Positions 40,523 through 62,979 of a DNA stretch of 64,000 bases are shown here, piece by piece. Each line of letters opens with the position of its first letter. The stretch's first letter is position 1. The position numbers and the translations under genes are program-made. Source of the DNA: Actinomycetota bacterium (GTDB lineage: Bacteria; Actinomycetota; Actinomycetes; Mycobacteriales; Mycobacteriaceae). The notes under the pieces were generated by a model, which saw only the letters and a list, made by a program, of their open reading frames with translations, had not been told where the DNA came from and ran no database searches. Location of the stretch: contig JAFDWN010000026.1 in NCBI GenBank assembly GCA_018268465.1, forward strand, positions 1 to 64,000. Reading direction: 5' to 3'.

Positions 40523-41578
40523 TCAACCCACCGTCCACGCATCCCCGCCTTCCAGCAGGTCCGCCAGTTCGGACTCCGGTGCCGCGGCGCCGTCGCGCAC
40601 AGAGGCCACCTGTGCGCGCACAAGATCGTCGTGAGCAGGCTTGACCACCTGGCGGAAGATCCCGATCGGCGCGCGCTCCAGCCGGCCCGCCGAGGTCAGC
40701 CGGGAGATGGCGAACGCCATCGTCGGGTCTTCGGCGTGCGCATCGTGCACCAGCAGCGCCGACTCGCCGACGTCGTTCACCTCCGCGACGCGCACCCGAC
40801 CCGCTCCCGGATCCCACACGAGCCCCTTGGTGCCGAACCGGATCGGCGTGCCGTGGCGCAGCGGGATGACCGCGTCCGATCCGCCCTTGAGCCCCGAGAA
40901 CGCACCGTCGTTGAAGATCGGGCAGTTCTGGTAGATCTCGACGAGGGCGGATCCACGGTGACCCGCGGCGGCCGCGAGGACCTCGGTGAGGTGCTGGCGA
41001 TCGGAGTCGACGGTGCGGGCCACGAAAGTCGCCTCGGCGCCGAGAGCGAGCGACACCGGGTTGAACGGCGCATCCACCGATCCCATCGGCGTCGATTTGG
41101 TGAGTTTGCCCGCTTCGCTGGTCGGCGACGACTGGCCTTTGGTGAGACCGTAGATCCTGTTGTTGAACAACAGGATGGTCAGGTTGACGTTTCGCCGCAT
41201 CGCATGGATCAGGTGGTTGCCGCCGATGGACAGCGCGTCTCCGTCCCCGGTGACCACCCACACCGACAGGTCCTCGCGCATGGTGGCGAGCCCGGTCGCG
41301 ATCGCCGGCGCACGGCCGTGAATACTGTGCAGGCCATAGGTGTTCAGGTAGTAGGGGAAGCGGCTGGAACACCCGATGCCCGAAACGAAGACGGTGTTCT
41401 CACGCCTGAGTCCGAGTTCGGACAGCAGGCCCTGCACCGCTGAGAGGATGGCGTAGTCGCCGCACCCCGGACACCAGCGGACCTCCTGATTCGACGCGAA
41501 ATCCTTGCGGGACAACGGGATAACAGTACGCGGCACATCCTCGAGGCCGCCGCGGGCCGGCTGGGATACACCGGTCAC
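40523..41578 (-). CDS. 2-oxoacid:ferredoxin oxidoreductase beta subunit (KorB-like)
   Basis: A 351 aa TPP-binding subunit. CPGCGDYAIL, SGIGCSSRFPYYL, and the TPP/Mg motif GDGDALSIGGNH with NNRIYGLTKGQ are as in KorB of M. tuberculosis. GTG at 41578 overlaps the alpha-subunit stop (GTGA). It would decarboxylate a 2-oxoacid to acyl-CoA with reduction of ferredoxin. As a second, island-borne copy it may use pyruvate or sulfopyruvate rather than 2-oxoglutarate; that is inference. Confidence 0.9.
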   Translation of the reverse strand: MTGVSQPARGGLEDVPRTVIPLSRKDFASNQEVRWCPGCGDYAILSAVQGLLSELGLRRENTVFVSGIGCSSRFPYYLNTYGLHSIHGRAPAIATGLATMREDLSVWVVTGDGDALSIGGNHLIHAMRRNVNLTILLFNNRIYGLTKGQSSPTSEAGKLTKSTPMGSVDAPFNPVSLALGAEATFVARTVDSDRQHLTEVLAAAAGHRGSALVEIYQNCPIFNDGAFSGLKGGSDAVIPLRHGTPIRFGTKGLVWDPGAGRVRVAEVNDVGESALLVHDAHAEDPTMAFAISRLTSAGRLERAPIGIFRQVVKPAHDDLVRAQVASVRDGAAAPESELADLLEGGDAWTVG

Positions 41579-43470
41579 ACCGCGGTCCGTTCCAGCCGGG
41601 CATCGGTGCCCACATCCGCAGCCTCGATGTGCGTCCACAGGATCGATGCGAGTTCTTCCGCCGCGAACGGGGTTCCGCGCACCCGCGCACAGGACTGGAC
41701 GTCGACGAGATACTCCGCACGCAGCAACCGGGCGAGCTGCCCGAGGTTCATCTCGGGAACCACCACTCGGTCGTAGGACCGCAACACCGGCCCGAGGTCG
41801 GCGGGTAGCGGATTGAGGTGGCGCAGGTGCAGCTGCGCGATCGCCCCGCCCGCGGACCGGATCCGGCGTGCCGCGGCGCCGATCGACCCGTAGGTCGAAC
41901 CCCAGCCGACCACGAGCACCCGGGCCGCCCCGGTCGGATCGTCGACCTGCAGCGGCGCCAGTTCGGCCGCCACCCGGTCCACCTTGGCCTGGCGGGTGCG
42001 AACCATGTGCTCGTGGTTGTCGGGATCGTAGGAGATCTCCCCGGTACGGTCGGCCTTCTCGATCCCCCCGATCCGGTGTTCCAGTCCCGCCACACCGGGC
42101 GGGGCCCACGGCCGGGCCAGGGTGTCCGGGTCCCGCAGGTAGGGCAGGAAGTCCCCGCCCGCTGCGGCGACCCGGGCGAAATCCGGTTCGATCCGCGGCA
42201 GCTGCGCAATCTCGGGTATCCGCCAGGGCTCCGACCCGTTGGCCAGGTATCCGTCGGAGAGCACCATCACCGGGGTCCGCCACCTCACCGCGATACGCGC
42301 GGCCTCGAGCACGGTGTCGAAGCAATCCGCCGGCGAGCGCGCGGCGACCACCGGCAGCGGAGCCTCGCCGTTGCGGCCGTAGAGCGCCTGCATCAGGTCG
42401 CTCTGTTCGGTCTTCGTCGGCAACCCGGTCGACGGGCCGCCACGCTGGACGTCGATGATCAGCAGGGGCAATTCGAGCATCACCGCCAGCCCGATCGTCT
42501 CCGACTTCAGTGCGATCCCCGGTCCCGACGAGGTCGTGACACCGAGGGCGCCACCATAGGCGGCCCCGAGTGCCGCGCCGACGGCGGCGATCTCGTCCTC
42601 GGCCTGATGGCTGACCACGCCGAACCGTTTGAGTCTGCTCAACTCGTGCAGCACATCGGAGGCCGGGGTGATCGGGTAGGCGCCCAGGAATACCGGCAAC
42701 CCGGCCCGCACCCCCGCGGCGACGATCCCGTACGCAAGCGCCTTGTTCCCGGTGATGTTGCGGTACCTGCCCGCCGGGACAGGGGCCGGTTTGACCACAT
42801 AGGTCACCGCGAGCGCCTCGGTGGTCTCACCGTAGTTCCAGCCGCTGCTCAGTGCCGCCACATTGGCGTCGCGGACACCGGGAGTGGCCGCGAACCTGCG
42901 CTGCAGGAACTCGATCGTGGCGGCGATGGGCCGGCCGTACATCCACGACACGAGGCCCAGTGCGAACATGTTCTTGGCCCGCGCCGCGTCTTTGCGCGAC
43001 AACGCGAACCGCTCGACAGCACGCGTGGTGATATCGGTCATGTCGACGGCGTGGACGTCGAATTCGGCCAGCGAGTCGTCACCCAGCGGGTCGGCGTCAT
43101 AGCCCGCCTTTGCGAGATTGCGGGCGGTGAAGTCGTGGGTGTCCACGACGATGCGGGCACCGGGCCGCAGGTCGCCGATGTTGGCGCGCAACGCGGCGGG
43201 GTTCATCGCGACCAGTACATCGGGCCGGTCGCCGGGGGTCAGGATGTCCCGGCCGGCGAAATGCACCTGGAACGACGACACTCCCGGCAGAGTCCCTGCG
43301 GGAGCACGGATCTCGGCGGGAAAGCTGGGCAATGTCGAGAAATCGTTGCCGAACGCGGCGGTCTGGTGGGTGAAACGGTCGCCGGCGAGCTGAATGCCGT
43401 CGCCGGAGTCGCCGGCGAATCTGATGACGACACGGTCCAGTTCCTCGACCGTCCGCTGCGCGTGGCTCAT
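41575..43470 (-). CDS. 2-oxoacid:ferredoxin oxidoreductase alpha/gamma fusion (KorA-like)
   Basis: A 631 aa fusion: gamma domain first (about 10-190, VIRFAGDSGDGIQLAG), then the alpha domain with GAYPITPASDVLHEL, SSGPGIALKSE and QRGGPSTGLPTKTEQ. Length and order match KorA. ATG at 43470 overlaps the ferredoxin stop (ATGA). It pairs with the KorB-like subunit and the adjacent ferredoxins. Confidence 0.92.
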   Translation of the reverse strand: MSHAQRTVEELDRVVIRFAGDSGDGIQLAGDRFTHQTAAFGNDFSTLPSFPAEIRAPAGTLPGVSSFQVHFAGRDILTPGDRPDVLVAMNPAALRANIGDLRPGARIVVDTHDFTARNLAKAGYDADPLGDDSLAEFDVHAVDMTDITTRAVERFALSRKDAARAKNMFALGLVSWMYGRPIAATIEFLQRRFAATPGVRDANVAALSSGWNYGETTEALAVTYVVKPAPVPAGRYRNITGNKALAYGIVAAGVRAGLPVFLGAYPITPASDVLHELSRLKRFGVVSHQAEDEIAAVGAALGAAYGGALGVTTSSGPGIALKSETIGLAVMLELPLLIIDVQRGGPSTGLPTKTEQSDLMQALYGRNGEAPLPVVAARSPADCFDTVLEAARIAVRWRTPVMVLSDGYLANGSEPWRIPEIAQLPRIEPDFARVAAAGGDFLPYLRDPDTLARPWAPPGVAGLEHRIGGIEKADRTGEISYDPDNHEHMVRTRQAKVDRVAAELAPLQVDDPTGAARVLVVGWGSTYGSIGAAARRIRSAGGAIAQLHLRHLNPLPADLGPVLRSYDRVVVPEMNLGQLARLLRAEYLVDVQSCARVRGTPFAAEELASILWTHIEAADVGTDARLERTAV

Positions 43471-43796
43471 TCGGCATTGGCCTCGGTCGCGGCCGTCGCG
43501 GCCACCAGCGGGGCGTCGTGTTCGGACGCCCCGACGGCCGCGGCGCCGCCGGGCGATCCGAGACCGGCGAAGAAGTCCCGGTTCGCCGACAGATACGGCC
43601 GCCAGCTCTCGGGCACATCCTCCTCGTAGTAAATCGCCTCCACCGGGCAAACCGGTTCGCACGCGCCACAATCGACGCATTCGTCGGGGTGGATGTAGAG
43701 CATCCGGGCGCCCTCGTAGATGCAGTCGACGGGGCATTCGTCGATACAGGCGCGGTCCTTGACGTCCACGCATGGTTGGGCGATCAGATAGGTCAC
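43467..43796 (-). CDS. 7Fe ferredoxin (FdxA/FdxC-like) with extended tail
   Basis: A 109 aa ferredoxin. Cys9, 17, 21, 25, 40, 43, 46 and 50 match the [3Fe-4S]/[4Fe-4S] pattern of actinobacterial seven-iron ferredoxins. After residue 75 a non-conserved Ala/Gly-rich tail follows. It probably accepts electrons from KorAB and passes them to the flavoprotein block. Confidence 0.92.
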   Translation of the reverse strand: MTYLIAQPCVDVKDRACIDECPVDCIYEGARMLYIHPDECVDCGACEPVCPVEAIYYEEDVPESWRPYLSANRDFFAGLGSPGGAAAVGASEHDAPLVAATAATEANAE

Positions 43797-43830: not shown

Positions 43831-44127
43831 TCACTCGGGATCGCGACCGAGCAGGTCCTTCATCGGTGTGTGCGGATTGAGCATGTTGTCGGGGAACACC
43901 ACGGTGATCGCCTTGGCGGGACACGCCTGCTCGCACAGACCGCAGTACCAGCATTCGTCGGGGTAGGCGATGACCGGCAACTCCTTGGACCGGGGCGTCT
44001 TGTGGATGATGTCGCCCGGGCATACGTAGTCGCAGATCATGCAGCGGATACAGGTGTCGGGGTCGATCAGGATCGGATTGTGCGGCGCGGGCCGGCCGGC
44101 CCCGTCGGCGATCGTCTCGGCAGTCAT
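43831..44127 (-). CDS. 2[4Fe-4S] protein, AprB-like electron-transfer subunit
   Basis: A 98 aa protein with two Cys-x2-Cys-x2-Cys-x3-Cys sets (26/29/32/36 and 59/62/65/69) separated by a 22-residue insert, as in adenylylsulfate reductase beta subunits, but lacking their long C-terminal tail. ATG at 44127 overlaps the flavoprotein stop (ATGA), so it is the flavoprotein partner. Confidence 0.8.
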   Translation of the reverse strand: MTAETIADGAGRPAPHNPILIDPDTCIRCMICDYVCPGDIIHKTPRSKELPVIAYPDECWYCGLCEQACPAKAITVVFPDNMLNPHTPMKDLLGRDPE

Positions 44128-45857
44128 CGAGATGCGCTCCTTGCCGTCTGGTCGGTGTCGTGTTCGATGAGGTAGTCCATCCGGACCCCCTCGGTTGCGT
44201 CGCGACTGAGCACGATCGCCTTTTTCCAGACACTGTCGTCGGTGTCGGGGTAGTCCAGGCGCCGATGCGCGGCTCCGGAGCGGCTTTCGGTGCGGTGCAA
44301 CGCCGCCCGCGTCATGATCTCCGCCGCCTGGCGGATGTTCTTGGCTTCGAGGGTGCGCATCAACGTGTGGAACGAGTCGGCACTCAGGTCGCCCTCGCGT
44401 GCGGCGATGTCCTGCAGCAACGCCAGCCCGTGGCGCATTCCCCGGTCGGTGCGGCGCATTCCGACGAAATCGGTCACGATGTGGCGAACGTCCTCCTCGA
44501 AGGCCTTCCAGCTTTCGCCCGCCTCGGTGCGCAGTGGTTCTTCCATCCGGGCCACCGCTTCGGTGACCGAGGCCGGATCGACGGCCACGTCGTCGGTCAC
44601 CGCGGCCCGTTCGACGGCCCCGCGGCCCGCGATGGCCCCCATTGCCGCCGCCGCGGAGATACCGCCGCTGACCATCGAGCAGTCACCGCCGGCGAAGAGC
44701 CCGGTGATGCTCGTCTCACCCGACGTGTCGACCACCAGGCCGCTGCCGCGGAAGTACGAACCGCCACGGCGGATGGACATCTCGGACAGACCGATGGGCA
44801 GCAGTTCCTTGCGGATGTCCAGGTTGCGCTGACGGAAGTACCCGGGCAGCGTGTAGCGGTCGACGCCGAGCGTGCGGACGAAGTCGTCCAGCGTGTGCGC
44901 CGGCAGATGGCGGATGTCGACGTAGATCGGCTCGTTGCCCGCCAGCACCTCTTCGATGACACCGTTGACCAGGATCGTGCGGCGGGCCTTCTCCCCCTTG
45001 GGGTCGTATTTGAACATGAAGCGTTCACCATGCCGGTTGATGAAGTATGCGCCCTGGCCGGCATACGAATTCGTGCCCTGAGTGGAGAATCCCAACGGTG
45101 TGAGGGTGGCCTCCACCAACTCCATGTTGACCAGCTGCGCCCCACTGCGGAAAGCCATGGCATGCCCGTCGCCCGTGTTGTACGGGAAATGCCAACTGTC
45201 GAAAGGCATTCCGGAGATGTTGCGGGAGATCCGGTTGATGTCGCCGGTGGCGACCACGACGGACTTCGCGCGGATCAGGAAGCGTTCGCCGGTGCGGCAG
45301 CTGAAACCGACCGCACCGGCCACCCGGTTACCGGTGACGTCCATGACGAGATCGGTGATCATGGTGCGGGGCAGGAACTTTGCGCCGTGACCGACGGTAT
45401 AGCGGCCGAGCCGGTATTTGAACCTGCTGCCGTCGAAGTTGAGGTGATACTCGCCGGGCAGCCCGAAGGCGCGGGTACGGAAGTAGTCGCCGGTGGCAGG
45501 ATCGGTGAAGTCGATGCCGATGTCGACCAGCCGCTGGAACACCCGGGGAAGTTCGTGGACGGCGCGTTCGGCGACGTCGAGGTCGCTCAGTCCGTCGGTG
45601 AGCCCGGGGACGAACATCATCAGATGTTCTGGGGTGTCCCACTCCTCACCGCCGTTGAGCGGGGTCATGAACTGATCGACACCGCCCGCGACACTGCCCG
45701 CCCGTTCCAGGAATCTCGCCTTGTCGGCGACGAGGACGCCGGCACCCGCATCCCGCGCCTGGATCGCGGCCAGGCAGCCGGCGACTCCGCCGCCGACGAT
45801 CAAGACGTCGGTCTCCACCTGTGTCAGCACATCCTGGGGCCATCTCAAGGGGTCCAT
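44124..45857 (-). CDS. AprA/fumarate-reductase-type flavoprotein (577 aa)
   Basis: FAD-binding protein of the succinate dehydrogenase/fumarate reductase/AprA superfamily: dinucleotide motif VLIVGGGVAGCLAA at residues 17-30, capping domain, and a GGDCSMVSGGISAAAAMGAIAG FAD segment (broken here as GGDCSMVSGG then a helix). The C-terminal helical domain has MRRTDRGMRHGL. ATG at 45857 has GGAGG upstream. The AprB-like partner suggests an AprBA-type reaction (sulfite with AMP) or another two-electron oxidation. The assignment to sulfite is inferred from cluster context; fumarate- or acyl-oxidation is an alternative. Confidence 0.7.
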   Translation of the reverse strand: MDPLRWPQDVLTQVETDVLIVGGGVAGCLAAIQARDAGAGVLVADKARFLERAGSVAGGVDQFMTPLNGGEEWDTPEHLMMFVPGLTDGLSDLDVAERAVHELPRVFQRLVDIGIDFTDPATGDYFRTRAFGLPGEYHLNFDGSRFKYRLGRYTVGHGAKFLPRTMITDLVMDVTGNRVAGAVGFSCRTGERFLIRAKSVVVATGDINRISRNISGMPFDSWHFPYNTGDGHAMAFRSGAQLVNMELVEATLTPLGFSTQGTNSYAGQGAYFINRHGERFMFKYDPKGEKARRTILVNGVIEEVLAGNEPIYVDIRHLPAHTLDDFVRTLGVDRYTLPGYFRQRNLDIRKELLPIGLSEMSIRRGGSYFRGSGLVVDTSGETSITGLFAGGDCSMVSGGISAAAAMGAIAGRGAVERAAVTDDVAVDPASVTEAVARMEEPLRTEAGESWKAFEEDVRHIVTDFVGMRRTDRGMRHGLALLQDIAAREGDLSADSFHTLMRTLEAKNIRQAAEIMTRAALHRTESRSGAAHRRLDYPDTDDSVWKKAIVLSRDATEGVRMDYLIEHDTDQTARSASR

Positions 45858-45894
45858 CCGGCCTCCGCACTCGTCCGTCGTGTCCGAACAATAA

Positions 45895-45908
45895 TGCAAA
45901 CGTATGCA
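45895..45908. promoter_or_regulatory. LacI-type operator TGCAAACGTATGCA (site A)
   Basis: Near-perfect palindrome 37 bases upstream of the flavoprotein start. One of five CAAACGTNTG-type sites in this insert. Confidence 0.75.
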
Positions 45909-45986
45909 CGAATAGTAGGTAGCAAGCTCACATCGTGTCAAGACATAGCTGTGCAAACGACCGGAGCGGGACCGGTCCGGTGACCC

Positions 45987-47021
45987 TCAGATGGCCCGCG
46001 TCGAGGCGCGGACCTGCAACTTCGTCGGAAGCAGCAGACTCGCCGGCCGCGCATCGGGATCGTCGAGCAGATCGAGCATCAAACGTGCTGTCTGCCTGCC
46101 GATGTCGTACTTGGGCACGTGGATACTCGTGAGTGGCGGATTGAACTCGTCGCACCAGCGTGACCCGTTGTAGCCGACGACGGACACATCGTCGGGCACG
46201 TGCAGCCCCCGCGCACGCAAGGCGCGGTAGCAACCGAGTGCGATCATGTCGCTGGCGGCGACGATCGCGGTGAAATCCGTTCCCCGAGCTAGTAGTTCGG
46301 CGGTCGCCTCGGCGCCGTACTCCTTGGTGAACCACGGCGCGAAGACCAACAGGTCCTGATCGACCGTCAGCCCGAGGCTCTGCATCCACGCCAGGAAGTA
46401 CTGATAGCGGTTGAACCCCGTCGACGCCGCCATCGCGGCCCCGACGAAGGCGATCCGCCGATGACCCAACTCGACGAGGTGTTTGACGGCCAGCCCCACG
46501 CCCTGGTGATCGTCACCGGCCACGGTCGGCATCGGGGAATCGTCGACGGTCCGGTTCACCAGGACCACCGGCAGGCGCGAATTCACCAGCGTGTCGATGA
46601 ACTGATAGCTGCGCCGGGCGGTCGCCAACACCAGCCCGTCGACCCTGCGCTGCATGAACACGTCGATCAGGTGCTGCTCGCGATCGAGGTCCTGGTCGGT
46701 GTTGCCCAGGATCATCACGTACCCACGGTCCTGCAGGCCGTCCTCGATGCCGCGCACGATCGGCGGGAACAGCGGGTTGCCCAGATCGGGGACGAGCATG
46801 CCCACCGTCATCGACTTCTGGTCCTTCAGACCACGCGCGAAGGGATTCGCCCGGTACCCGAGCGCCTCGGCCGTGGCCAGCACCCGTTTGAGCGTCTCGG
46901 GCTTGACCTTGCCGCGGGTCTCGGGCCGAAGCGCCCGCGAGACCGTGGAGATGTCGAGTTGGGCGGCGCTGGCCACCTCGCGGATCGTGGGTGGGCGCGG
47001 TCGTCCATCAGAGCTCGCCAC
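45987..47021 (-). CDS. LacI-family regulator of the second insert
   Basis: A 344 aa LacI/GalR regulator: helix-turn-helix at about 12-35 (TIREVASAAQLDISTVSRAL), hinge, then periplasmic-binding-like effector domain (VGMLVPDLGNPLFPPIVRGIE). I chose GTG at 47021, which has AGGGAGGG seven bases upstream, over the GTG at 47051. LacI proteins with SRAL-type recognition helices bind palindromes with a central CG; CAAACGTNTG at five promoters around this gene fits. The effector is likely a pathway intermediate. Confidence 0.9.
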   Translation of the reverse strand: MASSDGRPRPPTIREVASAAQLDISTVSRALRPETRGKVKPETLKRVLATAEALGYRANPFARGLKDQKSMTVGMLVPDLGNPLFPPIVRGIEDGLQDRGYVMILGNTDQDLDREQHLIDVFMQRRVDGLVLATARRSYQFIDTLVNSRLPVVLVNRTVDDSPMPTVAGDDHQGVGLAVKHLVELGHRRIAFVGAAMAASTGFNRYQYFLAWMQSLGLTVDQDLLVFAPWFTKEYGAEATAELLARGTDFTAIVAASDMIALGCYRALRARGLHVPDDVSVVGYNGSRWCDEFNPPLTSIHVPKYDIGRQTARLMLDLLDDPDARPASLLLPTKLQVRASTRAI

Positions 47022-47092
47022 GGCGCCGCCCTCCCTCCCGTCAACTGCCACCCCGCCCGGAGTCTAGGGCACGGTCTGATGCAATCGCTTGG

Positions 47093-48283
47093 TTAGCCAT
47101 GGTCCATCGGAACCGACCGCGCGGTGACCGCCGCGCTCAGCAGCGCACCCGCGGTCAGCCAGAGCACGCCGGCCGCGCCGAGTCCGGTCGCCACCGACCC
47201 GACGCCGGCCGGGATGAGCACCTGCCCGAACCTGTTGACGACCAGCCGCAGTGACATCACCCGCCCACGCAGCCCCGGAGGCGCGATCTCGGCCAGCCAC
47301 GAGAGGGTCAGCGGCTGGCACACGCCGAGGCCGAAACCCATCACCACCATCGCGGCGAACAACACGCCGACCGGCACCGGGAACGGCACGACGGCCGTCG
47401 CGAGGGCCGACGCGGCGATGGCGGCGACGAGAAACACCCGCCGCCCCAGCAACGCCGACAACCGGCCGAGGAACAGCCGCGATGCCATCGACGCCAGCGC
47501 CCGTACCGTCAGGAGTCCCCCGACCACGCCGACGGTCAGGCCGTGCTCGGCGCCGAGCGCGGGCAGATATACCAGGGTGATGTCCATCGAGGACAGCACG
47601 ACGGCGCTGACCAGCAACGCCTTGCGCAGGCCGGGGGTGCGCAGGAGCGAGGCGACGCGGTGCTCGCGCGCCTTGACCACCCGCCCCGGCGCGGAGGTGG
47701 CGCGGGCGAACAATGTCACCGCCACCAGCGCCGCGGCCAAACCCAGCCCCGCCAGGAACGCCGCCCCGGCGTCGGGCAGCGCCCCGGTCGGCCCGAACAG
47801 GGTGAGCAGCCCGGGTCCAGCCGCCTGCCCCAGCGCACCGATGAACGTGTAATACCCGTAGGCGCCGTCGAGTCGCGCGTTGGGTATCAGGTTCGCCACC
47901 ATCGCGTGCTGGGCCACGGTGCACAGCAGGTGCCCGGCGCCGAGCACGATCATGGCGACCACGATTCCGGCGAAACTGTCCGCCAGCACGACGAAAAGTA
48001 CTGCCGACCCGCATACGATCGCCGCGCCGGCGATGAGCACCCGGTGCTCGCCGTAGCGGTCGGCGGCGTCACCCGCCGGCAGCGCGACCACCAGCGGGAC
48101 GAGGGCGAAACTTGCCGCGAGCACACCCAGCCAGGCCGACGAGGTGTGCAGCTCGATCGCCCGGTACGACGCGGTGGGCCGCAGCAGGAACGTCACGGCC
48201 TGGAACAACAGCGTGTGCACGCACAGGATGACGAACTGGGGGCCGCCGGGAACACGGTGCAGCCAGGACAACCGGTTGGTCAC
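47093..48283 (-). CDS. MFS transporter (396 aa)
   Basis: Twelve-segment major facilitator protein with GDAADRYGEHRVL between segments 2 and 3 and GRLSALLGRRVFL in the central loop. GTG at 48283 overlaps the amidohydrolase stop. It may import the substrate or export sulfite/other product; substrate specificity cannot be read. Confidence 0.88.
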   Translation of the reverse strand: MTNRLSWLHRVPGGPQFVILCVHTLLFQAVTFLLRPTASYRAIELHTSSAWLGVLAASFALVPLVVALPAGDAADRYGEHRVLIAGAAIVCGSAVLFVVLADSFAGIVVAMIVLGAGHLLCTVAQHAMVANLIPNARLDGAYGYYTFIGALGQAAGPGLLTLFGPTGALPDAGAAFLAGLGLAAALVAVTLFARATSAPGRVVKAREHRVASLLRTPGLRKALLVSAVVLSSMDITLVYLPALGAEHGLTVGVVGGLLTVRALASMASRLFLGRLSALLGRRVFLVAAIAASALATAVVPFPVPVGVLFAAMVVMGFGLGVCQPLTLSWLAEIAPPGLRGRVMSLRLVVNRFGQVLIPAGVGSVATGLGAAGVLWLTAGALLSAAVTARSVPMDHG

Positions 48284-49302
48284 AGCCCTGCTTCGGAGCG
48301 CCCGCGAAGGCTCGAACCGAGGAGTTCCGCGGCGTTGCCGGCGATGATCTTGTCCACCGTGTCCGCGTCCAGTCCGGGTGTTGCGCGCACCGTTGCCACG
48401 GGCGCGGGCTCACCCATCTCGAACGGATAGTCGCTGCCCAGCACCACCCGGTCGGCCCCGACGATGCGGACCAGGAATTCGCGGGCGGGGTCCGAGTGGA
48501 CCACGGTGTCGAAGTACATGGTGCGCAACCACTCGCTCGGTGCGACGGTGAGGTTGGTGGCGGCACCGCGAACGTCGTTGCGGAACGCGTGGTCCCAGCG
48601 GCCCACCTGGTACGGCGCGAAACCGCCGCCGTGCACGACGCACAGCCGCAGCAGACGGTGGCGCTCGAGCACTCCCCCGAAGATCAGATTCCCTATTGCC
48701 ACGGTGGATTCCGCCGGATTGCCCACCACGTTGCCGAGAAAGTGCCGGTTGACGTCACGGCCGGCGAGTGAGTCCAGGGGGTGCACCAACAGCACGCAGC
48801 CCAGCTCCTCGGCGGCGTGCCACAGCGGCGCGAACGCCGGATCGTCGAGGTCGTGCCCGGCGGGTCGCGTCGCGACCTCCGCGCCCACCATGCCCAGCGT
48901 GCCCACGCAGTACCGGAGTTCGATGGCCGCGGCCACCGGGTCGCAGGCCGGCAGGTTGGCCAGGGCCAGGAACCGGTCAGGGTGGTCGGCCACGACGGCC
49001 GCGGCGGCTTCGTTGTAGACCCGGGCAAACGTCGGGGCGGCGGCTACCGACAACCGGCACGCCGACAGACTCATCCACGGCGAGAGCACCTGCACGTCGA
49101 CACCGTCGCGGTCCATGGCCTGCAACCGGGAATCGAGATCGATGAGATTGCCGGACAAGGCTATCGGCGCGCGGGAACCCACCGCGACGCGATACCGGTC
49201 ACCGTCGGTGGCGATGGTGACACCCAGGCGCGCGCCATGTTGGGCGAGCTCGCCCAGCAACGTTCGCGGAACGCAGTGGGCGTGGAGGTCGATGGTCCGC
49301 AT
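48280..49302 (-). CDS. Amidohydrolase family 2 (ACMSD-like) protein
   Basis: A 340 aa metal-dependent hydrolase/decarboxylase: HxH in DLHAHCVP (residues 5-12), a mid His in LLVHPLDS, VVHGGGFAPYQ and a late Asp in VLGSDYPFEMG. The set fits the ACMSD-type amidohydrolase superfamily. ATG at 49302 is divergent from the dehydrogenase operon, with operator site B between. It may hydrolyse or decarboxylate an upstream substrate. Confidence 0.88.
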   Translation of the reverse strand: MRTIDLHAHCVPRTLLGELAQHGARLGVTIATDGDRYRVAVGSRAPIALSGNLIDLDSRLQAMDRDGVDVQVLSPWMSLSACRLSVAAAPTFARVYNEAAAAVVADHPDRFLALANLPACDPVAAAIELRYCVGTLGMVGAEVATRPAGHDLDDPAFAPLWHAAEELGCVLLVHPLDSLAGRDVNRHFLGNVVGNPAESTVAIGNLIFGGVLERHRLLRLCVVHGGGFAPYQVGRWDHAFRNDVRGAATNLTVAPSEWLRTMYFDTVVHSDPAREFLVRIVGADRVVLGSDYPFEMGEPAPVATVRATPGLDADTVDKIIAGNAAELLGSSLRGRSEAGL

Positions 49303-49354
49303 GGGTGCCTCCTGACTGGAAACTCTCATCAAAGTACTCGACACCCTTGACCCA

Positions 49355-53576: not shown

Positions 53577-54602
53577 TCAGACGTTTCCGGGGTTGGGCGC
53601 CAAACCCAGCTTCTCTTGTGCCTCGGTGAGACAGCTGAAGTCGGTGTTCGCCTTCCAATCGAATCCCGCGGGGACGTTGCCGTTGTCGATCATCGCCTGA
53701 TTCCACTCCTCGAACGCCTCGAGCGAGGAACCACCGTCGAGGGCGAGCTGGTTGCTCATCTCGGCTGTCCACTCGTCGATTTCGTCCTCGCTCGGGTCGA
53801 GTCCCCGCTCGCGTACCATCGTCACGACCTCGTCCTGATTGGCGGTGTGGTTGGCGCCCTGGGAGACGAACTGCAGGGCCTCCACGCGGCCGAGCACGTA
53901 GTTGCAGACCTCCTCGCGGTGGTTGGCCATGGTCTCCGAGCGCACCACCCACGTCTCTTGCGGAACCTCCCGATATTCCTGGACGATCATCTGTCCGCCG
54001 TTGGCCTCCAGCGGGGCCAGGTGCCGGGGCTGGAGCACGGCGACGTCGATCTGCCCGGCGAGCAGCGCAGTCAGCCGGTCGTCGGATCCGCCCGAAATCG
54101 ACACGAACTCCATGTCATCGGGATTGACGCCGCGTTCTTCGAGCAGTGCCTTGGCCACCGCCACGTTGCGGTCACCGATCGGGCCGCCGCTGATCTTGAG
54201 ACCGGCGAGATTGTTCGGATCGACCCCTTCGCGCACCCCGAGCCACCACGCTTCCTTGCCCTTGATCACGCCGATGACGGTGAGCGGAACGCTGCCCTCC
54301 GCCATCGCCGCCCAGATGGCGTCGCTCTCACCCTGGGCCACCCAGACGTCACCGCCGATCAACGCGGCCATATACTCGTCGGAGGCGGTGACATCGGCCG
54401 GCTCGGTGAATCCGAGCTGCGGCCAATACTTTTCGTCGGCCACCATCCACGTCATCTGGTTCATGAAGTCGTCGTTGTCATACGACATCCTGACTTGGTC
54501 GTACTTCTCCCCGGCGCTGTCGCCACCGCCACCCCCGCAGGCCGACAGCGTCAGGCCGGCGGCCGCGAGCACCGAGATGAGTTTCATCGCATCCTTGTTC
54601 AC
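53577..54602 (-). CDS. ABC importer substrate-binding lipoprotein
   Basis: A 341 aa lipoprotein with lipobox LSAC (Cys22) and a nitrate/sulfonate/taurine-type binding fold. GTG at 54602 has GGAGGG eight bases upstream. Trp/Asp-rich segments near the start may form the ligand pocket. In this cluster it is a candidate sulfonate receptor. Confidence 0.88.
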   Translation of the reverse strand: MNKDAMKLISVLAAAGLTLSACGGGGGDSAGEKYDQVRMSYDNDDFMNQMTWMVADEKYWPQLGFTEPADVTASDEYMAALIGGDVWVAQGESDAIWAAMAEGSVPLTVIGVIKGKEAWWLGVREGVDPNNLAGLKISGGPIGDRNVAVAKALLEERGVNPDDMEFVSISGGSDDRLTALLAGQIDVAVLQPRHLAPLEANGGQMIVQEYREVPQETWVVRSETMANHREEVCNYVLGRVEALQFVSQGANHTANQDEVVTMVRERGLDPSEDEIDEWTAEMSNQLALDGGSSLEAFEEWNQAMIDNGNVPAGFDWKANTDFSCLTEAQEKLGLAPNPGNV

Positions 54603-54678: not shown

Positions 54679-55527
54679 TCAGTCGGGCTGCCGACGCCAC
54701 TCCATCACCTTTCTCTCCATGTACTGGGTGACGCCCACCATCGCGACGCAGAACAACAAGAACACGAGCAACATCGCGTAGACCCGCCCACTGTTGAAGG
54801 TCTTCTGCGCCAGGGCGATGATGTAACCGATACCGTTGGTGCTGGTGAACAGCTCGCCGATGAACAGCCCCAGCAGACCGCGCGAGACACCCATCCGGAT
54901 CCCGGTGGCGATGAAGGGCACGGTCGAGGGCATGACGACGGACCTGAACAGCTGAAAGCGACTGGCCCCGAACGATCGGGCCGCCCTGAGCAGGCCGTTG
55001 TCGACGGTCTTGACACCCTCCATGATCACGACCAGTGTCGCGGGCACCGCCGACAGGACGATGATCGTCACCCGCGCCGCGTCGTTGATGCCCACCCACA
55101 ACAGGATCAGCGGCATGAGCACGATTCGCGGCATGGTGTACAGCGCCCACACGTACGTGCTCAACGCCCGGTCCAGGATCGGGATCCCGCCGATCGCCAG
55201 CCCGGCCGGTACGGCGATGACGATGGAGATGGCCATTCCGATGAGGTAGATGGTGAGGCTGACCCACAGATTGCTCCACAGGATGCCCTCGACACTCATC
55301 TCCCGGAGTTCCCCGAAGACCTCGGTGACCGAAGGCAGGAAGAGCGTGGGGATGTCGCTGTAGGTCGCGATCAGCTGCCAGATCGCAAAGAACGCACCCA
55401 GGTTGAGAATTCCGATGATGATCCGCTGGCGCCGCGTGAACACGCGGCGCGACCGGCGCCGCGGCAGATTCTTGCGGAAGACCCCCGGTACGAGCGTCCG
55501 GCGCGGCGATGCCGCCGTCGCGGTCAC
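54679..55527 (-). CDS. ABC importer permease (282 aa)
   Basis: Six-segment permease with a long basic N-terminus and the EAA loop NGLLRAARSFGASRFQLFRSV. GTG overlaps the preceding permease stop. Paralogue of the next gene; together they form the channel. Confidence 0.92.
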   Translation of the reverse strand: MTATAASPRRTLVPGVFRKNLPRRRSRRVFTRRQRIIIGILNLGAFFAIWQLIATYSDIPTLFLPSVTEVFGELREMSVEGILWSNLWVSLTIYLIGMAISIVIAVPAGLAIGGIPILDRALSTYVWALYTMPRIVLMPLILLWVGINDAARVTIIVLSAVPATLVVIMEGVKTVDNGLLRAARSFGASRFQLFRSVVMPSTVPFIATGIRMGVSRGLLGLFIGELFTSTNGIGYIIALAQKTFNSGRVYAMLLVFLLFCVAMVGVTQYMERKVMEWRRQPD

Positions 55528-57190: not shown

Positions 57191-57239
57191 GATTGTGTCG
57201 TCCTTCCCATATGACCGTGAAGTGTGACTCGGATCTCAT

Positions 57240-57252
57240 TACAAACGTTTGC
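57240..57252. promoter_or_regulatory. LacI-type operator TACAAACGTTTGC (site C)
   Basis: Perfect palindrome CAAACGTTTG at 57242-57251 in the promoter of the ABC importer operon. Confidence 0.8.
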
Positions 57253-57299
57253 TCTATAACAGTCGGTGGTATGGTCGTTGTCAAGGAAAATCTTGGTTG

Positions 57300-58355: not shown

Positions 58356-58387
58356 CCGCGCCTGCCTCCATTGCGGGAGTACCAGAA

Positions 58388-58401
58388 TGCAAACGTTGGC
58401 A
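58388..58401. promoter_or_regulatory. LacI-type operator TGCAAACGTTGGCA (site D)
   Basis: Palindrome with one mismatch, 33 bases upstream of the Ldh2/ComC-type start. Confidence 0.75.
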
Positions 58402-58477
58402 TTGACCTGTCCGGGGCTCGGTCACCGAAGGGTTGGCGCGGGCCGGGCGAGCTATACGTTCGCCCGGCCCGCGGACG

Positions 58478-59638
58478 TCAGGCGCTGCGGTAGAGCTTGG
58501 TCAGCGTGAACTCGCGATGACCGAGGGATTCGGCAGCGGTCAGCCGACCGTTGATGGTTCGCTCGACCAGCTCGATCAGTGCCTCCCCCGCCTCCTCCAC
58601 CGATTGGCCCTCGGTGAGCATCGGCGAGCAGTCGACATCGATGTGGTCGGGCATCGTCGCCGCGGTCTTCGGGTTGGCGGTGATCTTGACGACGGGCTGG
58701 ATCGGATTGCCGATGACGTTGCCTTGTCCGGTGGGGAACAGATTGACCACGCCGCCACCCGCCGCCATCAGGGTGACGCATTCGGCGGCCGCCGAGGACG
58801 TGTCCATGAAATGCAGACCCGCGGTCGTCGGCGCCTCGGCCGGCGCGAGCGCGCCCACGATGGGCGCGGTGCCGGTCTTGACGATATTGCCCATCGCCTT
58901 CTCCTCGATGGTCGACAACCCGCCGGTGATGTTGCCCTGGGTGGGCTGCGAACCCAGCAGGTTGGCGCCGGTCGCCTCGATCATCTCGATGTAGCCGTCG
59001 TAGAAAGACTGGAACCTCGCCCGCACCGCGTCGTCGACGCACCGCTCGGCGATCAGGTGCTCACCTCCGGTGAGCTCGCTGGTCTCACCGAAGATCATCC
59101 TGCCGCCGCTGGCCACCCAGGCGTCGCTCAGATACGCGGTGATCCGGCATGACCCGAGGCCGGTGGTGGTGTCGGACTCGCCGTCCTTGGTCGTCAGCAC
59201 GATCTCCGAACGCTCGACCGGCTCGCGCACCACCTCGCTGGCGTCCTGCAGGAACTGCTGGGCCACCCGGCCGGCGCGCTCGATCACCTTGAGATCGCCA
59301 AGCCCTTCGATCCAGAAACCCTCGACCGGTTTGCCGGTCTTGGCGATGCCCTCGACGACACGCGAGGTCCACACCGGCTCGATGCCGATCACCACCACCG
59401 CGGCGACGTTGGGATTGGAGCCGATGCCGATCAAGGTGCGGAAGGTGAGGTCGAGATCCTCACCGAACTGCAACCGGCCGAAGGCGTGCGGAAGTGCCAG
59501 AGTGCCGGGGATGACCGCGGCGACAGCCTCGGCCGCGGCATTGGAGAGATCGTCGACAGGCAGGACCGCCACGTAGTTTCGCGTTCCGACCGCCCCATTG
59601 GCCCGGCGGTATCCGGTCAGGCGACGCTGTTGTGCCAC
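58478..59638 (-). CDS. suyB: UxaA-family large subunit, SuyB-like sulfolactate sulfo-lyase
   Basis: A 386 aa iron-sulfur lyase of the altronate dehydratase/SuyB group. GAVGTRNYVAVLP, GIGSNPNVAAVVVIGIEP, the CGESDTTTGL-type block (here DGESDTTTGLGS), SQPTQGNITGG and HFMDTSSAAAECVTLM are read. Its length, and the separate small subunit in front, match SuyAB rather than full-length UxaA. Candidate iron ligands are Cys in GLGSCRI and ECVTL. GTG at 59638 overlaps suyA by 22 bases. SuyAB cleaves (R)-sulfolactate to pyruvate and sulfite; specificity for sulfolactate over altronate or galactarate is inferred. Confidence 0.75.
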   Translation of the reverse strand: MAQQRRLTGYRRANGAVGTRNYVAVLPVDDLSNAAAEAVAAVIPGTLALPHAFGRLQFGEDLDLTFRTLIGIGSNPNVAAVVVIGIEPVWTSRVVEGIAKTGKPVEGFWIEGLGDLKVIERAGRVAQQFLQDASEVVREPVERSEIVLTTKDGESDTTTGLGSCRITAYLSDAWVASGGRMIFGETSELTGGEHLIAERCVDDAVRARFQSFYDGYIEMIEATGANLLGSQPTQGNITGGLSTIEEKAMGNIVKTGTAPIVGALAPAEAPTTAGLHFMDTSSAAAECVTLMAAGGGVVNLFPTGQGNVIGNPIQPVVKITANPKTAATMPDHIDVDCSPMLTEGQSVEEAGEALIELVERTINGRLTAAESLGHREFTLTKLYRSA

Positions 59639-59916
59639 CGTGCACTCCTCACGTTGTGGATGTGGACGTAATCGCCCTTCTCGATGTCGGCACTGGCGAT
59701 CGCGGTGCGCACGCCGTACTCGATGACGTCCTCACCCTTGGCGACATCGCGCAGCGCCACCTTGTGGCCGAGTGGGATCTCCGCCGTGGCATCGATCTCG
59801 AGTGCCCCGGAGCCGTCGAGAAACTCGACACGCCCGGGGCCCTTCGGCGCGTCCATCACGGCCACCGCGACGTAATCGCCGTCGTGGTGGGCGAGGAACG
59901 TCGGTCTGTTCGCCAT
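59617..59916 (-). CDS. suyA: SAF-domain small subunit, SuyA-like
   Basis: A 99 aa SAF-domain protein, the small subunit of UxaA/SuyAB lyases: an N-terminal FLAHHDGDYVAVAVMD strand and the C-terminal GDYVHIHNVRS motif. ATG at 59916 has GAGGAG upstream. First gene of the suyAB pair; operator site E is 60 bases upstream. Confidence 0.8.
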   Translation of the reverse strand: MANRPTFLAHHDGDYVAVAVMDAPKGPGRVEFLDGSGALEIDATAEIPLGHKVALRDVAKGEDVIEYGVRTAIASADIEKGDYVHIHNVRSARWHNSVA

Positions 59917-59975
59917 CCGCCTGTTCTCCTCTGGTAAGTGGTCTGACCTCGACTGGCCGAACAGTATCCCCAAGG

Positions 59976-59985
59976 CAAACGTATG
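59976..59985. promoter_or_regulatory. LacI-type operator CAAACGTATG (site E)
   Basis: Core palindrome with one mismatch, within GGCAAACGTATGTC, in the divergent region between suyA and the FadR-type regulator gene. Confidence 0.75.
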
Positions 59986-60159
59986 TCAACAGCCTGACCA
60001 GGCCCAAAAGCCGCTCTCTGCAGAAGTTTCCAGCCATCATTCGGACCAGTCGACCGGAGAATCGCCATCCGAAAAGACGAGTCAAGGTCAGACCACCGGC
60101 CGGCCCACGATGACGTACGCTGGGACCTCGAACGACAGCGGGCACGAAACGGGGGTGAC

Positions 60160-60912
60160 ATGGCAGTCGCGGATCCGGTCAACACATGGCAACCCCTCGG
60201 CCAGGGTGGCCTCACCGAACGCATCCGGTCGGAGATCCTGCGTTACCTCGACGCGCACGACCTGTCCCCCGGCGACCGGTTGCCCGCCGAACGGGAACTG
60301 GCCGCCGCACTCAAGGTGAGTCGGCCGTCCGTGCGCGAGGCCGTGCGTTCCCTGCAGGCCGAAGGCCGGCTGGTCGTCAAGCACGGTCAGGGGGTGTTCG
60401 TCGCCGAGCCGTCGTCGCAACGGGCGTTCCGGGAGTCGATGGCGCGCCTCGACGCGAGCCTGTCGGAGCTGTTCGCCATGCGCGAGGTGCTGGAGGTGCC
60501 CGCCGCCAGGTGGGCGGCCCAGCGTCAGGACGCTGCGGGCCTGGCCGCAGTGCAGCAGGCCTTCATCGATCTCGACGAGGCCGTGCGCGAGAAACCGCGC
60601 GACTTCCGCAAACTCCAGCATCTGGACGCCACATTCCATCTGCGCATCGTCCAAGCCGCGGGCAACCGCCTGCTCGAACAATCCCAGGGGGTGCTCAACG
60701 AGTTACTCATGACCGGGCTGAAGACCACACTCGAAATCGACGGCAGGCTCGAACAGTCCTGGCAGGAGCATCGCGCGATCCTCACCGCGCTGCTCGACGG
60801 CGACGCGGCGGCGGCCGGTCGCGCGGCCCAACTGCACGTCCGCAACGTGCGCAAGGCGGCCAACCGCCGGATTGCCGAGGCCGCAGCAGGTTTCGATCCC
60901 CCGACCGGCTAG
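60160..60912 (+). CDS. FadR-subfamily GntR regulator (FCD domain)
   Basis: A 250 aa regulator: winged helix at about 18-80 (LPAERELAAALKVSRPSVREAV) and an FCD effector domain with metal-binding His residues in LDATFHLRIVQAAGN and SWQEHRAIL. Divergent from suyAB, so a local controller of that pair is likely, possibly layered on the LacI regulon. Confidence 0.9.
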   Translation: MAVADPVNTWQPLGQGGLTERIRSEILRYLDAHDLSPGDRLPAERELAAALKVSRPSVREAVRSLQAEGRLVVKHGQGVFVAEPSSQRAFRESMARLDASLSELFAMREVLEVPAARWAAQRQDAAGLAAVQQAFIDLDEAVREKPRDFRKLQHLDATFHLRIVQAAGNRLLEQSQGVLNELLMTGLKTTLEIDGRLEQSWQEHRAILTALLDGDAAAAGRAAQLHVRNVRKAANRRIAEAAAGFDPPTG

Positions 60913-61892
60913 CCGCCGCTCGGGGACCGTGGGTCCGTGCGGCCGGCGGCCCCGCCGGCCGCCGCGATCGCGATCAGGTCGGCGGCACCGGCGGTCAGGC
61001 GTTGGTGCCGCTGCCACACCGCACGCAGCGGACGGACCAACGGGACATCGTCGACCGCCAACTCCACCAGCCTGCCGTCGCGCACCTCCGCGGCCACCGC
61101 GAGATCACTGAGAACCGCAGGTGCAGCACCAGATTCGACCGCAACCTTGATAGCAGAGTTGCTGGAGAGTTCGAGTGCGATCGCGACCCCCAGGCCCATC
61201 GATTCCATCGCATGCTCGAGGGACGTCCTGGTGCCCGATCCGCTCTCCCGCACCACCAGTGGGGTACCGGCCAACGTCGCACTGTCAATTGCCTTGGTGC
61301 GCTTGGCCCATGGATGACTCGGCGCGACGACGACCATCAGCCGGTCCGACGCGACCCGACGTGACGCCAACTGGCGTGGAGCATCGGGGCATTCGATGAA
61401 CCCCAGCTCCACCGAACCGTCCTCGACCAGCTCCTGGACCCGCGCCGAATTCGCCACCGTGAGGTTGACCTCGGCCTGACCCGACAGTGCCCGAAACTTC
61501 ATCAGCCATGTGGGAACCAGGTATTCGGCCACCGTCATACTCGCAGCCACCCGCAGCGTGGCCCAGCGATCGTGCCGAAGCGCATCCACGCCCGAGAGCA
61601 GGTCCAGGACGGATTGCAGTGCGGTGCGCGCCCAGTCGACCACGACCTGCCCCTGCGGGGTCGGCTTCGACCCCCGGGCGCTGCGCGACAGCAGGGTGAT
61701 GCCCAGTTCACGCTCGAGAGTGTCCAACCGCCTGCTCGCGGACGCCTGCGAAATACCCACCTCCGCAGCCGCTTTCCCGATGCTCCCGTGATCGGCCGCG
61801 CGCACCAGTAAATCGAGGGTGCCGAGATCCGGCCAGTGCCTTCGGGTCACGGCGCGGAACCCCGCCGGCGTGCCACCGCTGTGCGAGGTCAT
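60909..61892 (-). CDS. LysR-family regulator
   Basis: A 327 aa LTTR: HTH about 22-80 (AADHGSIGKAAAEVGISQASASRRL) and periplasmic-binding effector domain. It is divergent from the YeiH-family exporter, the same arrangement as yeiE-yeiH in Escherichia coli, and probably activates it. Its stop overlaps the FadR-type gene convergently by four bases. Confidence 0.9.
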   Translation of the reverse strand: MTSHSGGTPAGFRAVTRRHWPDLGTLDLLVRAADHGSIGKAAAEVGISQASASRRLDTLERELGITLLSRSARGSKPTPQGQVVVDWARTALQSVLDLLSGVDALRHDRWATLRVAASMTVAEYLVPTWLMKFRALSGQAEVNLTVANSARVQELVEDGSVELGFIECPDAPRQLASRRVASDRLMVVVAPSHPWAKRTKAIDSATLAGTPLVVRESGSGTRTSLEHAMESMGLGVAIALELSSNSAIKVAVESGAAPAVLSDLAVAAEVRDGRLVELAVDDVPLVRPLRAVWQRHQRLTAGAADLIAIAAAGGAAGRTDPRSPSGG

Positions 61893-61962
61893 ACGTAAAC
61901 CCTATAACCCCATTCGGATTTGACCACTAGCATCGCGCACTCGACGCGACGAGATTGTGCAC

Positions 61963-62979
61963 ATGGCGGATGTCGGGCAACGCCCCCTCAACCGATTCGC
62001 CCGTTCGCACGCACCCGGACTCACCGTGGTCGCCGCGGCGTGCCTCGTCTCACTCGGTGTCAATCTGCTTGTACCCGCGGTCAGTCCGCTGATGGTCGCG
62101 CTGGCGCTTGGCGTCGTCGTCGCCAACTCCGGAGTCGACACGCGGGCCATGCAGGGTGGCTTGTCCTTCGCGTCACGTCGACTCTTGCGGATCGGCATCG
62201 TCCTGCTGGGCCTGCAGGTCTCATTCGGTCTGGTGCTCGGACTCGGCTCGGCCATGCTCGCGGCGCTCACCCTCGTGGTCGTACTCGGCTTCCTGTTCAC
62301 CGTCGCCGTGGGCCGCCTGCTGCGGCTGTCGACATCCCGGACCCTGCTGATGGCGTGCGGGTTCTCCATCTGCGGTGCGTCGGCAGTCGTGGCCATGGAC
62401 GGTGTGGTCAAGGCCGACGACGAGGACGTGACCGCGGCCATCGCCGCGGTCACCGTCTTCGGCACCGTGTGCATCGCGGGACTTCCGCTGCTGGACACGC
62501 TGCTTCCGCTGACCGCCGAACAGTTCGCGCTGTGGGCGGGTTTGTCGGTGCACGAAGTGGCTCAAGTGGTGGCCACGACCGCGGTGGCCGCTCCCAGCGC
62601 GCTCGCGGTCGCGGTGACGGTCAAACTCGGGCGTGTGCTCATGCTCGCACCGGTGGTCGCGGGTACCGCGATCGTCCTGCGTTACCGTCGCGGAGCGGCC
62701 GCAACCCGGGACGGCGCGCGCCTCACTGTCATCCCGCTCTTTGTCGTCGGGTTTCTGGTGATGGTGACGGTGGCAAGCGCCGGGGTGCTGCCCCAGCCCT
62801 TCCTCGAGGCGGCCCGGGTGATTCAGCTGGTGCTCATGACGGCCGCGCTGTTCGCGATGGGCACAGCGGTGCGGCTGGTTCCGCTGATCCGCTCCAGCGG
62901 CCGGCTGTTGGTCCTCGGCGCCGTCTCCACCTGCTTCATGGTCACCGCGGCCCTGGCCGCGGTGCTCATCACCACATGA
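61963..62979 (+). CDS. YeiH-family putative sulfate/sulfite exporter
   Basis: A 338 aa membrane protein with about ten hydrophobic segments. Family motifs: GVVVANSG, LRIGIVLLGLQVSFG, CGFSICGASAVVAM and GLSVHEVAQVVATT. ATG at 61963 (GTG at 61957 is an alternative). The family is annotated as sulfate exporters, and in this cluster it would remove sulfite or sulfate released from sulfonates. Confidence 0.85.
   Translation: MADVGQRPLNRFARSHAPGLTVVAAACLVSLGVNLLVPAVSPLMVALALGVVVANSGVDTRAMQGGLSFASRRLLRIGIVLLGLQVSFGLVLGLGSAMLAALTLVVVLGFLFTVAVGRLLRLSTSRTLLMACGFSICGASAVVAMDGVVKADDEDVTAAIAAVTVFGTVCIAGLPLLDTLLPLTAEQFALWAGLSVHEVAQVVATTAVAAPSALAVAVTVKLGRVLMLAPVVAGTAIVLRYRRGAAATRDGARLTVIPLFVVGFLVMVTVASAGVLPQPFLEAARVIQLVLMTAALFAMGTAVRLVPLIRSSGRLLVLGAVSTCFMVTAALAAVLITT

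Follow-up and report, generated by a model that had tools for sequence, protein, structure and literature searches.

A sulfonate-type catabolic island in a mycobacterial genome, with an altered SuyB and a recurring gene module

Sulfolactate degradation by SlcC, ComC and the two-subunit lyase SuyAB has been described for Chromohalobacter salexigens, Paracoccus pantotrophus and P. wurundjeri Merri (PMC12421959; PMC6018796). A second route, from 2,3-dihydroxypropane-1-sulfonate (DHPS) through sulfolactate to SuyAB, is outlined for Cupriavidus pinatubonensis and Desulfovibrio sp. DF1 in PMC6278857. Here these systems are compared with a candidate sulfonate catabolic island at 40523-62979 of contig JAFDWN010000026.1, from the 6.9 Mb genome of a member of the Mycobacteriaceae (GCA_018268465.1); the window is the whole stretch analysed, positions 1-64000 of that contig. 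The island resembles the first pathway in SuyA, SuyB, a ComC-like Ldh, an importer and a sulfite exporter, but it has no SlcC-group protein, its SuyB carries Asp152, Arg165 and Asn299 (D152/R165/N299), and many extra catabolic genes are present. The SuyAB end step is shared with the DHPS route, whereas no hpsN/hpsO-type genes are among the island's family assignments. An earlier note on this DNA, made from the letters alone, had described one insert with a complete SlcC-ComC-SuyAB set, through which both sulfolactate enantiomers would yield pyruvate and sulfite. The sulfonate-type island is real, with one key gene misread. Two new points emerged, both worth following up: a natural Cys-to-Asp clade of SuyB, and a gene module found again close to SuyAB elsewhere in the Actinomycetota and in a metagenome-assembled genome (MAG) of Acidobacteria.

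Plasmid loci of Rhodococcus koreensis R85 and R. jostii RHA1 share FadR, SuyA, SuyB and a ComC-like protein (55-58%) with the island, and that of RHA1 also LysR and YeiH. They differ in a Cys-type SuyB and in a suyAB-linked dehydrogenase (within 10 kb of suyB in the same locus) of the SlcC group, and no match to the creatininase, Gfo or FAA hydrolase lies within 18 kb. Prauserella rugosa (locus L038) has a D152/R165/N299 SuyB (81% identity), a ComC-like protein (55%), LysR and YeiH, but its suyAB-linked dehydrogenase is of the SlcC group and no match to the module, that is, the 2-hydroxyacid dehydrogenase, creatininase-family, Gfo/Idh/MocA and cupin proteins, lies within 10 kb. The inositol route combines Gfo/Idh dehydrogenases with the creatininase-family protein IolN, and the island has the same pairing of oxidoreductase and hydrolase. 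It differs from that route in its model scores (IolG 128.5 of 355 bits, IolN 54.5 of 245), and no other inositol or uronate gene was recognised. The titles and abstract beginnings that searches of the open-licence literature listed contained no description of the module or of a Cys-less SuyB, which is weak evidence of absence.

The insert and its genes

The island lies between an mrx1-like gene (40271-40513), named after its M. tuberculosis counterpart, and a nudC-like gene (62993-63955). These two genes are only 9-965 bp apart in 14 of the 15 same-genus loci compared around nudC, and no mrx1 match was found in the nudC flank of the remaining one. nudC itself was matched in 30 of 31 relatives (E<=0.001), three same-genus ones giving short weak matches only. 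With less than 1 kb separating the neighbours in 14/15 congener loci, the insertion of a block of about 22.5 kb is real, as had been claimed, and it was probably gained horizontally. There is no tRNA within the insert; the sole tRNA of the 64-kb window is at 8487. The following features were assigned (cut-offs are those of the respective models).

40271..40513, + strand: mrx1-like mycoredoxin, left flank outside the insert; proximity to nudC in congener loci
40523..41485, - strand: 2-oxoacid:ferredoxin oxidoreductase (OFOR) beta, start approximate; PF02775; TIGR02177 217.7 bits (start-truncated stretch), cut-off 261.9
41575..43470, - strand: OFOR alpha, start approximate; TIGR03710 647.6 bits, cut-off 482.75 exceeded
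43467..43796, - strand: actinobacterial FdxA ferredoxin; NF045480 185.4 bits, above cut-off 125
43831..44127, - strand: AprB-like dicluster 4Fe-4S protein; 80% identity in RBC062
44124..45956, - strand: AprA/FrdA-like flavoprotein; best PDB match PAPS reductase alpha 8a8o; 84% in RBC062
45987..47051, - strand: LacI-family regulator; 82% in RBC062
47093..48283, - strand: MFS transporter; missing from the RBC062 copy (alignment gap, no match)
48280..49305, - strand: ACMSD-like amidohydrolase_2 (putative decarboxylase/hydrolase); PF04909 127 bits; best PDB match 4ign ACMSD, 174 bits
49377..50384, + strand: D-2-hydroxyacid dehydrogenase of the module, outside the SlcC group by trees; family match 152 bits
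50381..51163, + strand: creatininase-family hydrolase; PF02633 185 bits
51160..52230, + strand: Gfo/Idh/MocA oxidoreductase; best NCBIfam match inositol 2-dehydrogenase, 128.5 bits (cut-off 355); best PDB match 3db2, 270 bits
52329..52694, + strand: small cupin; PF07883 52.8 bits
52718..53545, - strand: FAA hydrolase; PF01557 245 bits; NF053535 250.5 bits, cut-off 500
53577..54602, - strand: SsuA/NMT1-like substrate-binding protein; NMT1 26.6 bits (cut-off 20.5)
54679..55527, - strand: ABC permease; PF00528
55524..56375, - strand: ABC permease; PF00528
56372..57190, - strand: ABC ATPase; PF00005
57300..58355, - strand: ComC-like Ldh_2 dehydrogenase; Ldh_2 288 bits; missing from the RBC062 copy (alignment gap, no match)
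58478..59638, - strand: SuyB-clade putative lyase with D152, R165, N299; PF20629 252 bits, PF04295 111 bits
59617..59916, - strand: SuyA-like small subunit, 99 aa; SAF model, galactarate dehydratase N-terminal region
60160..60912, + strand: GntR/FadR-family regulator; best NCBIfam match NanR, 109 bits, cut-off 260; 83% in RBC062
60909..61892, - strand: LysR regulator, YeiE-like; NF040786 170.8 of 250 bits; NF040889 (YeiE) 147.9 of 480
61957..62979, + strand: YeiH-family putative sulfate/sulfite exporter; PF03601 220.6 bits, cut-off 24.5; TIGR00698 159.1, below 232.6
62993..63955, - strand: nudC-like NUDIX hydrolase, right flank outside the insert; matches in relatives

The earlier note had named nine of the 23 genes counted in the interval; the OFOR and ferredoxin, AprBA-like, amidohydrolase, creatininase, Gfo/Idh/MocA, cupin and FAA hydrolase genes went unmentioned.

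SuyAB and its sulfonate-type neighbours

The SuyA- and SuyB-like subunits were recognised correctly. SuyB of the window is 91% identical to that of RBC062 (a mycobacterial MAG, G033), 81% to P. rugosa, 71-72% to Rhodococcus and 57-58% to C. pinatubonensis and Paracoccus, the next-best identity being below 40% among the 50 plasmid matches listed. It is rare in the lineage: SuyB is present in 2 of 297 genus genomes, the source genome included, and in four of the 298 of the order sample, namely the source and three of one other genus (80-82% identical), read as Prauserella since one of the three agrees in identity with the P. rugosa locus L038. In a FastTree tree of 121 rows, a check set beforehand for the 58478-59638 protein, the window protein falls with SuyB, while 20 UxaA/GarD-like rows, several on long branches that call for a long-branch warning, lie beyond a branch with 100% support; L118 had been dropped as a near-copy of L038. 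By this tree the protein belongs with SuyB, and placement with UxaA/GarD, the outcome that the earlier note had named as refuting its reading, was rejected. A SuyA-like open reading frame (ORF) lies directly upstream of suyB, with 56-66% identity to SuyA of R. koreensis and Prauserella; it matches the SAF model at E 0.01 and 16.8 bits (cut-off 21) and the galactarate dehydratase N-terminal region at 33 bits.

The alignment of 122 SuyB/UxaA/GarD members revealed replacements at three positions. The Cys of the KCGESD motif (residue 152) is found in 116 rows and Asp in six. Residue 165 is Pro in 115/122, Arg in the same six rows and Lys in one (L086). At residue 299 (VHxFPTGQG) the six rows have Asn and the other 96 SuyB-side rows His, and the 20 UxaA/GarD-like rows vary there among V, I, T, M and Q. 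The variant rows are the window, RBC062 and four of Prauserella type, two of which (L038 and L118) resemble one species, and they form a single clade in the SuyB tree; 13 more SuyBs, from the phylum sample and the module genomes, are of the Cys type without exception. When the window is compared with RBC062, the ratio of nonsynonymous to synonymous substitution rates (dN/dS) is 0.062 for suyB, in a range of 0.06-0.20 across the ten genes compared, and suyB is therefore held under constraint. SuyAB of Desulfovibrio sp. DF1 has been reconstituted with Fe(II), catalysis residing in SuyB (PMC6278857); the KCGESD Cys may bind the iron. The reading of the island enzyme as an ordinary (R)-sulfolactate sulfo-lyase is weakened, because Cys and His are both replaced.

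As for the neighbours, the ComC-like Ldh is 55-58% identical, over 88-100% of its length, to Ldh proteins near suyAB in six Rhodococcus/Pseudonocardiaceae loci and 43-55% in other Actinomycetota loci; in cut loci the identity is 53-58% over 154-181 residues. The L-sulfolactate dehydrogenase model NF040650 gave 176.7 bits and its cut-off of 500 was not reached. ComC would be a fair name by position. The LysR gene (YeiE model 148 bits, below the cut-off of 480) is divergent from the YeiH gene, and the pair is also found near suyAB in RHA1 and Prauserella. The YeiH-family assignment was confirmed, with scores above the PF03601 cut-off (220.6 vs 24.5) and below that of TIGR00698 (159.1 vs 232.6).

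The four-gene ABC importer, composed of a binding protein, two permeases and an ATPase (53577-57190, - strand), is present as had been described. As to its naming as sulfonate/taurine-type, the binding protein reaches 35.4 bits with SsuA_fam TIGR01728 (cut-off 163.5, missed) and 26.6 with NMT1 (over 20.5); an SsuABC/TauABC-type sulfonate importer is plausible from these matches. A possible second sulfonate-type locus is situated at 30768-36356 of the window, left of uvrD2. It comprises genes for a luciferase-like monooxygenase (30768-31880, - strand), an NMT1/SsuA-like binding protein (32358-33374, + strand), an ABC ATPase and permease (33415-35033, + strand) and a flavin reductase (35862-36356, + strand), and resembles ssu-like desulfonation sets, all ssu/tau-type NCBIfam matches being below cut-off.

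The 2-hydroxyacid dehydrogenase and the recurring module

The two dehydrogenases of the earlier note fared differently: a ComC-like gene is present (43-58% to Ldh proteins near suyAB), and the assignment of the other to the SlcC family failed. In a tree of 57 rows, the 49377-50384 protein clusters with proteins of creatininase/Gfo modules (support 100/100), apart from a group made up of the 47 suyAB-linked 2-hydroxyacid dehydrogenases, whose sources include Bacillota, Actinomycetota and Pseudomonadota among others. The window protein shares 54-61% identity with module proteins from beyond its genus, of which three belong to SuyB-less genomes, and at most 42% with the suyAB-linked ones. Sinorhizobium mexicanum is among the strains reported to have SlcC, ComC and SuyAB homologues, according to an mBio 2025 paper (PMC12421959), and its protein stood in for the characterised Chromohalobacter SlcC as reference. 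When this protein and six paralogues from the source genome were added, in a quick tree with long-branch warnings and midpoint rooting, the 47 and the S. mexicanum protein made up one group of 48. None of the six placed paralogues fell inside this SlcC group and two were on the module side; a seventh (L193, with an in-frame TGA) was omitted. SlcC identity was thus rejected, since the trees put the protein outside the suyAB-linked group, and the complete SlcC-ComC-SuyAB set with its racemase route is unsupported for this island.

Many other Actinomycetota loci have a suyAB-linked 2-hydroxyacid dehydrogenase and a ComC-like gene together, so the complete set is not exotic at phylum level. For instance, in 9/9 loci of L144-L152, which come from genomes 1.4-1.8 Mb in size, suyB has genes for a 2-hydroxyacid dehydrogenase and a ComC-like protein on one side and a weak Gfo/Idh-like match on the other. 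The full sulfolactate set appears common in streamlined genomes of this type.

A second mycobacterial copy is found in RBC062, the only congener found with the island core. Its block is collinear with 43831-60881 at 76.5-82% DNA identity, has no MFS or ComC gene, and ends without OFOR, LysR and YeiH; the absence of ComC, MFS, LysR and YeiH refers to the island copy, not to the whole RBC062 genome. The block sits between an M20 peptidase gene and two genes which we take to be acpS-like and, for the very large one (3093 aa), FAS-I-like.

Elsewhere in the phylum, relatives of the Gfo/Idh/MocA protein at 69-73% identity occur in 6 of the 395 other phylum genomes. One contig of G1139 bears cupin, gfo, creatininase, 2-hydroxyacid dehydrogenase, importer and suyAB genes. 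G976 has its copy spread over two contigs: one bears the genes for importer, FAA hydrolase, Gfo, cupin, LVIVD protein, alpha/beta hydrolase and part of an amidohydrolase, the other suyAB and a further amidohydrolase fragment. G956 has an importer, the alpha/beta hydrolase (79%) and LVIVD protein (84%) as in G976, an amidohydrolase, yeiH and suyAB on one contig; a different contig bears the genes for FAA hydrolase, Gfo, cupin, creatininase and dehydrogenase. A second suyAB of G956, an actinobacterial MAG, is followed directly downstream by Gfo/Idh (34%) and creatininase-family (26%) genes (L175, G956:C331 8616-12986). Looser module copies near suyAB occur in L048, L055 and L106, the last an Acidobacteria MAG (gfo 41-42%, creatininase 39-43%). 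SuyB was detected in 12 of the 395 genomes, Gfo in 6 and both in 3 (hypergeometric p 0.0004; 0.007 after merging two same-genus genomes, with no correction for kinship beyond that pair); for this count the two phylum samples were treated as the same 396 genomes, their size and listed handles agreeing. Genes were called by frame bias in G033, L005, L038, L048, L055, L106, L160-L165 and L171-L177, where several ORFs are shadows.

SuyB-less module copies (L165 and L172 of G839; L164, L176 and L177 of G1181) lie near genes for LVIVD-repeat and flavin adenine dinucleotide (FAD) amine-oxidase-like proteins. Those of G839 are also near genes for a molybdopterin-dehydrogenase-type FAD subunit and an FrsA-like alpha/beta hydrolase.

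Candidate pathway, alternatives and meaning

We lean, with some reserve, towards a horizontally acquired catabolic island in which SuyAB-type desulfonation is fed by an upper pathway, its substrate being of more than three carbons and probably sulfonated. The core of the island is the part in common with RBC062, where it lies at another chromosomal site: the AprBA-like pair, LacI, amidohydrolase, module, FAA hydrolase, TauT-type importer, SuyAB and GntR/FadR. The importer would take up this substrate. The Gfo/Idh enzyme could oxidise a hydroxyl on a ring or a chain, its product could be cleaved by the creatininase-family and FAA hydrolases, and the ACMSD-like amidohydrolase could decarboxylate an intermediate. 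The SuyAB-type lyase may then split the resulting sulfolactate-like acid into pyruvate and sulfite. Of the extras in the source strain, ComC would interconvert sulfopyruvate and (R)-sulfolactate, and the LysR/YeiH pair would sense and export sulfite. Gene content, insertion site, SuyB clade, replaced residues and the recurrence of the module are observed; we infer the horizontal gain, the substrate, the order of steps, the activity of the altered SuyB and the role of the AprBA-like pair and OFOR. A sulfonate substrate would suit the importer type, SuyAB and YeiH. A wider version, in which the Gfo/Idh/MocA and 2-hydroxyacid dehydrogenases, the creatininase-family hydrolase and further hydrolases form an undescribed pathway that turns a larger sulfonate into a 3-carbon one for SuyAB across Actinomycetota and Acidobacteriota, and the SuyAB of Mycobacteriaceae and Prauserella went from Cys to Asp with a changed metal site or substrate, is tentative and less than probable. 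The FAA hydrolase also brings to mind a sulfonated counterpart to the 2,4-diketo-3-deoxy-rhamnonate hydrolase route; this stays no more than an idea, as no dehydratase or diketo-forming dehydrogenase was identified.

Several observations weigh against an upper pathway that ends in SuyAB. With the family Cys and the SuyB His replaced, sulfolactate cleavage by the island enzyme cannot be assumed. For the 2-hydroxyacid dehydrogenase, the creatininase, Gfo and the FAA hydrolase, all listed NCBIfam matches are below cut-off, and the amidohydrolase and cupin have no NCBIfam match, which leaves the upper-part enzymes with no characterised-function assignment. Three of the six genomes with a Gfo relative of at least 69% (G910, G1181 and G839, each 97-98% complete) gave no match to SuyB at E<=1e-30, so the chemistry of the module need not involve a sulfonate. 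Gfo and creatininase relatives both above 33% were present, at up to 10 kb per side, in just 4 of the 80 SuyB loci surveyed (L037, L048, L055, L106), these being the best 80 of 583 confirmed relatives.

The three SuyB-less genomes also speak for two unrelated cargoes at one site, a sulfonate part (SuyAB, ComC, LysR, YeiH) and a sulfur-free catabolic module. So does P. rugosa, where the D-variant SuyAB is accompanied by ComC-like, LysR and YeiH genes and nothing within 10 kb matches the creatininase, Gfo, cupin, FAA hydrolase or amidohydrolase. The RBC062 copy, however, holds the module and SuyAB without ComC, LysR and YeiH, the module and SuyAB are found together in G1139, L048 and L106, and their co-occurrence is above chance; we regard this division as unlikely, though it deserves weight. 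A similar standing, that of a minority possibility, is given to the D-variant SuyAB acting on a different 2-hydroxy acid, as a dehydratase or lyase, and no longer as a sulfo-lyase. C152D, P165R and H299N occurring jointly in 6/122 rows, in one clade and under purifying selection, would fit such a change, whereas YeiH and LysR stand beside the D-variant suyB in the island and in L118-L120 (3/3 of Prauserella type), which points to sulfite. It is improbable that the island handles free (R,S)-sulfolactate by a full SlcC-ComC-SuyAB set of racemase and lyase: SuyAB, a ComC-like protein, a TauT-type importer and YeiH are all there, but the dehydrogenase lies in the module clade (100/100), no placed paralogue is in the SlcC group, and ComC is missing from the RBC062 copy.

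The AprBA-like pair might oxidise released sulfite to adenosine 5'-phosphosulfate (APS) and so dispose of it, a role favoured by the best PDB match of the AprA-like subunit (PAPS reductase alpha 8a8o, 151 bits) and by the retention of the pair in RBC062, whose copy lacks YeiH. Nevertheless, the aprA model gave 100.9 bits (cut-off 641.75) and the aprB model 26 (cut-off 135.65), both missed; the stretch that in AprA bears functional arginines reads LVEATLTPLGFST in the island protein; and no Sat-type ATP sulfurylase match was found anywhere in the source genome. An APS-reductase role is disfavoured on these grounds, and we consider such sulfite disposal highly improbable. Among 296 class genomes, an AprA-like match at E<=1e-60 was found in the source genome only. 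The run of aprA-like, aprB-like, fdxA, OFOR alpha and OFOR beta genes suggests that electrons pass by way of ferredoxin between a 2-oxoacid and some acceptor or donor. The OFOR pair with its own FdxA (40523-43796) is an extra set, a second OFOR alpha of 62% identity being encoded on contig C40. Elsewhere in the window, 10136-13576 holds a large AfsR/SARP-type regulator gene in a stretch of 73% GC.

Sulfolactate holds a central place in organosulfur turnover, and the presence of SuyAB genes is usually taken as a sign of its use. A natural clade without an otherwise kept residue offers a direct test of the role of that residue, and it counsels caution with annotation by family alone. In addition, the recurring module hints at a source of sulfolactate-like acids beyond sulfosugars, DHPS and cysteate.

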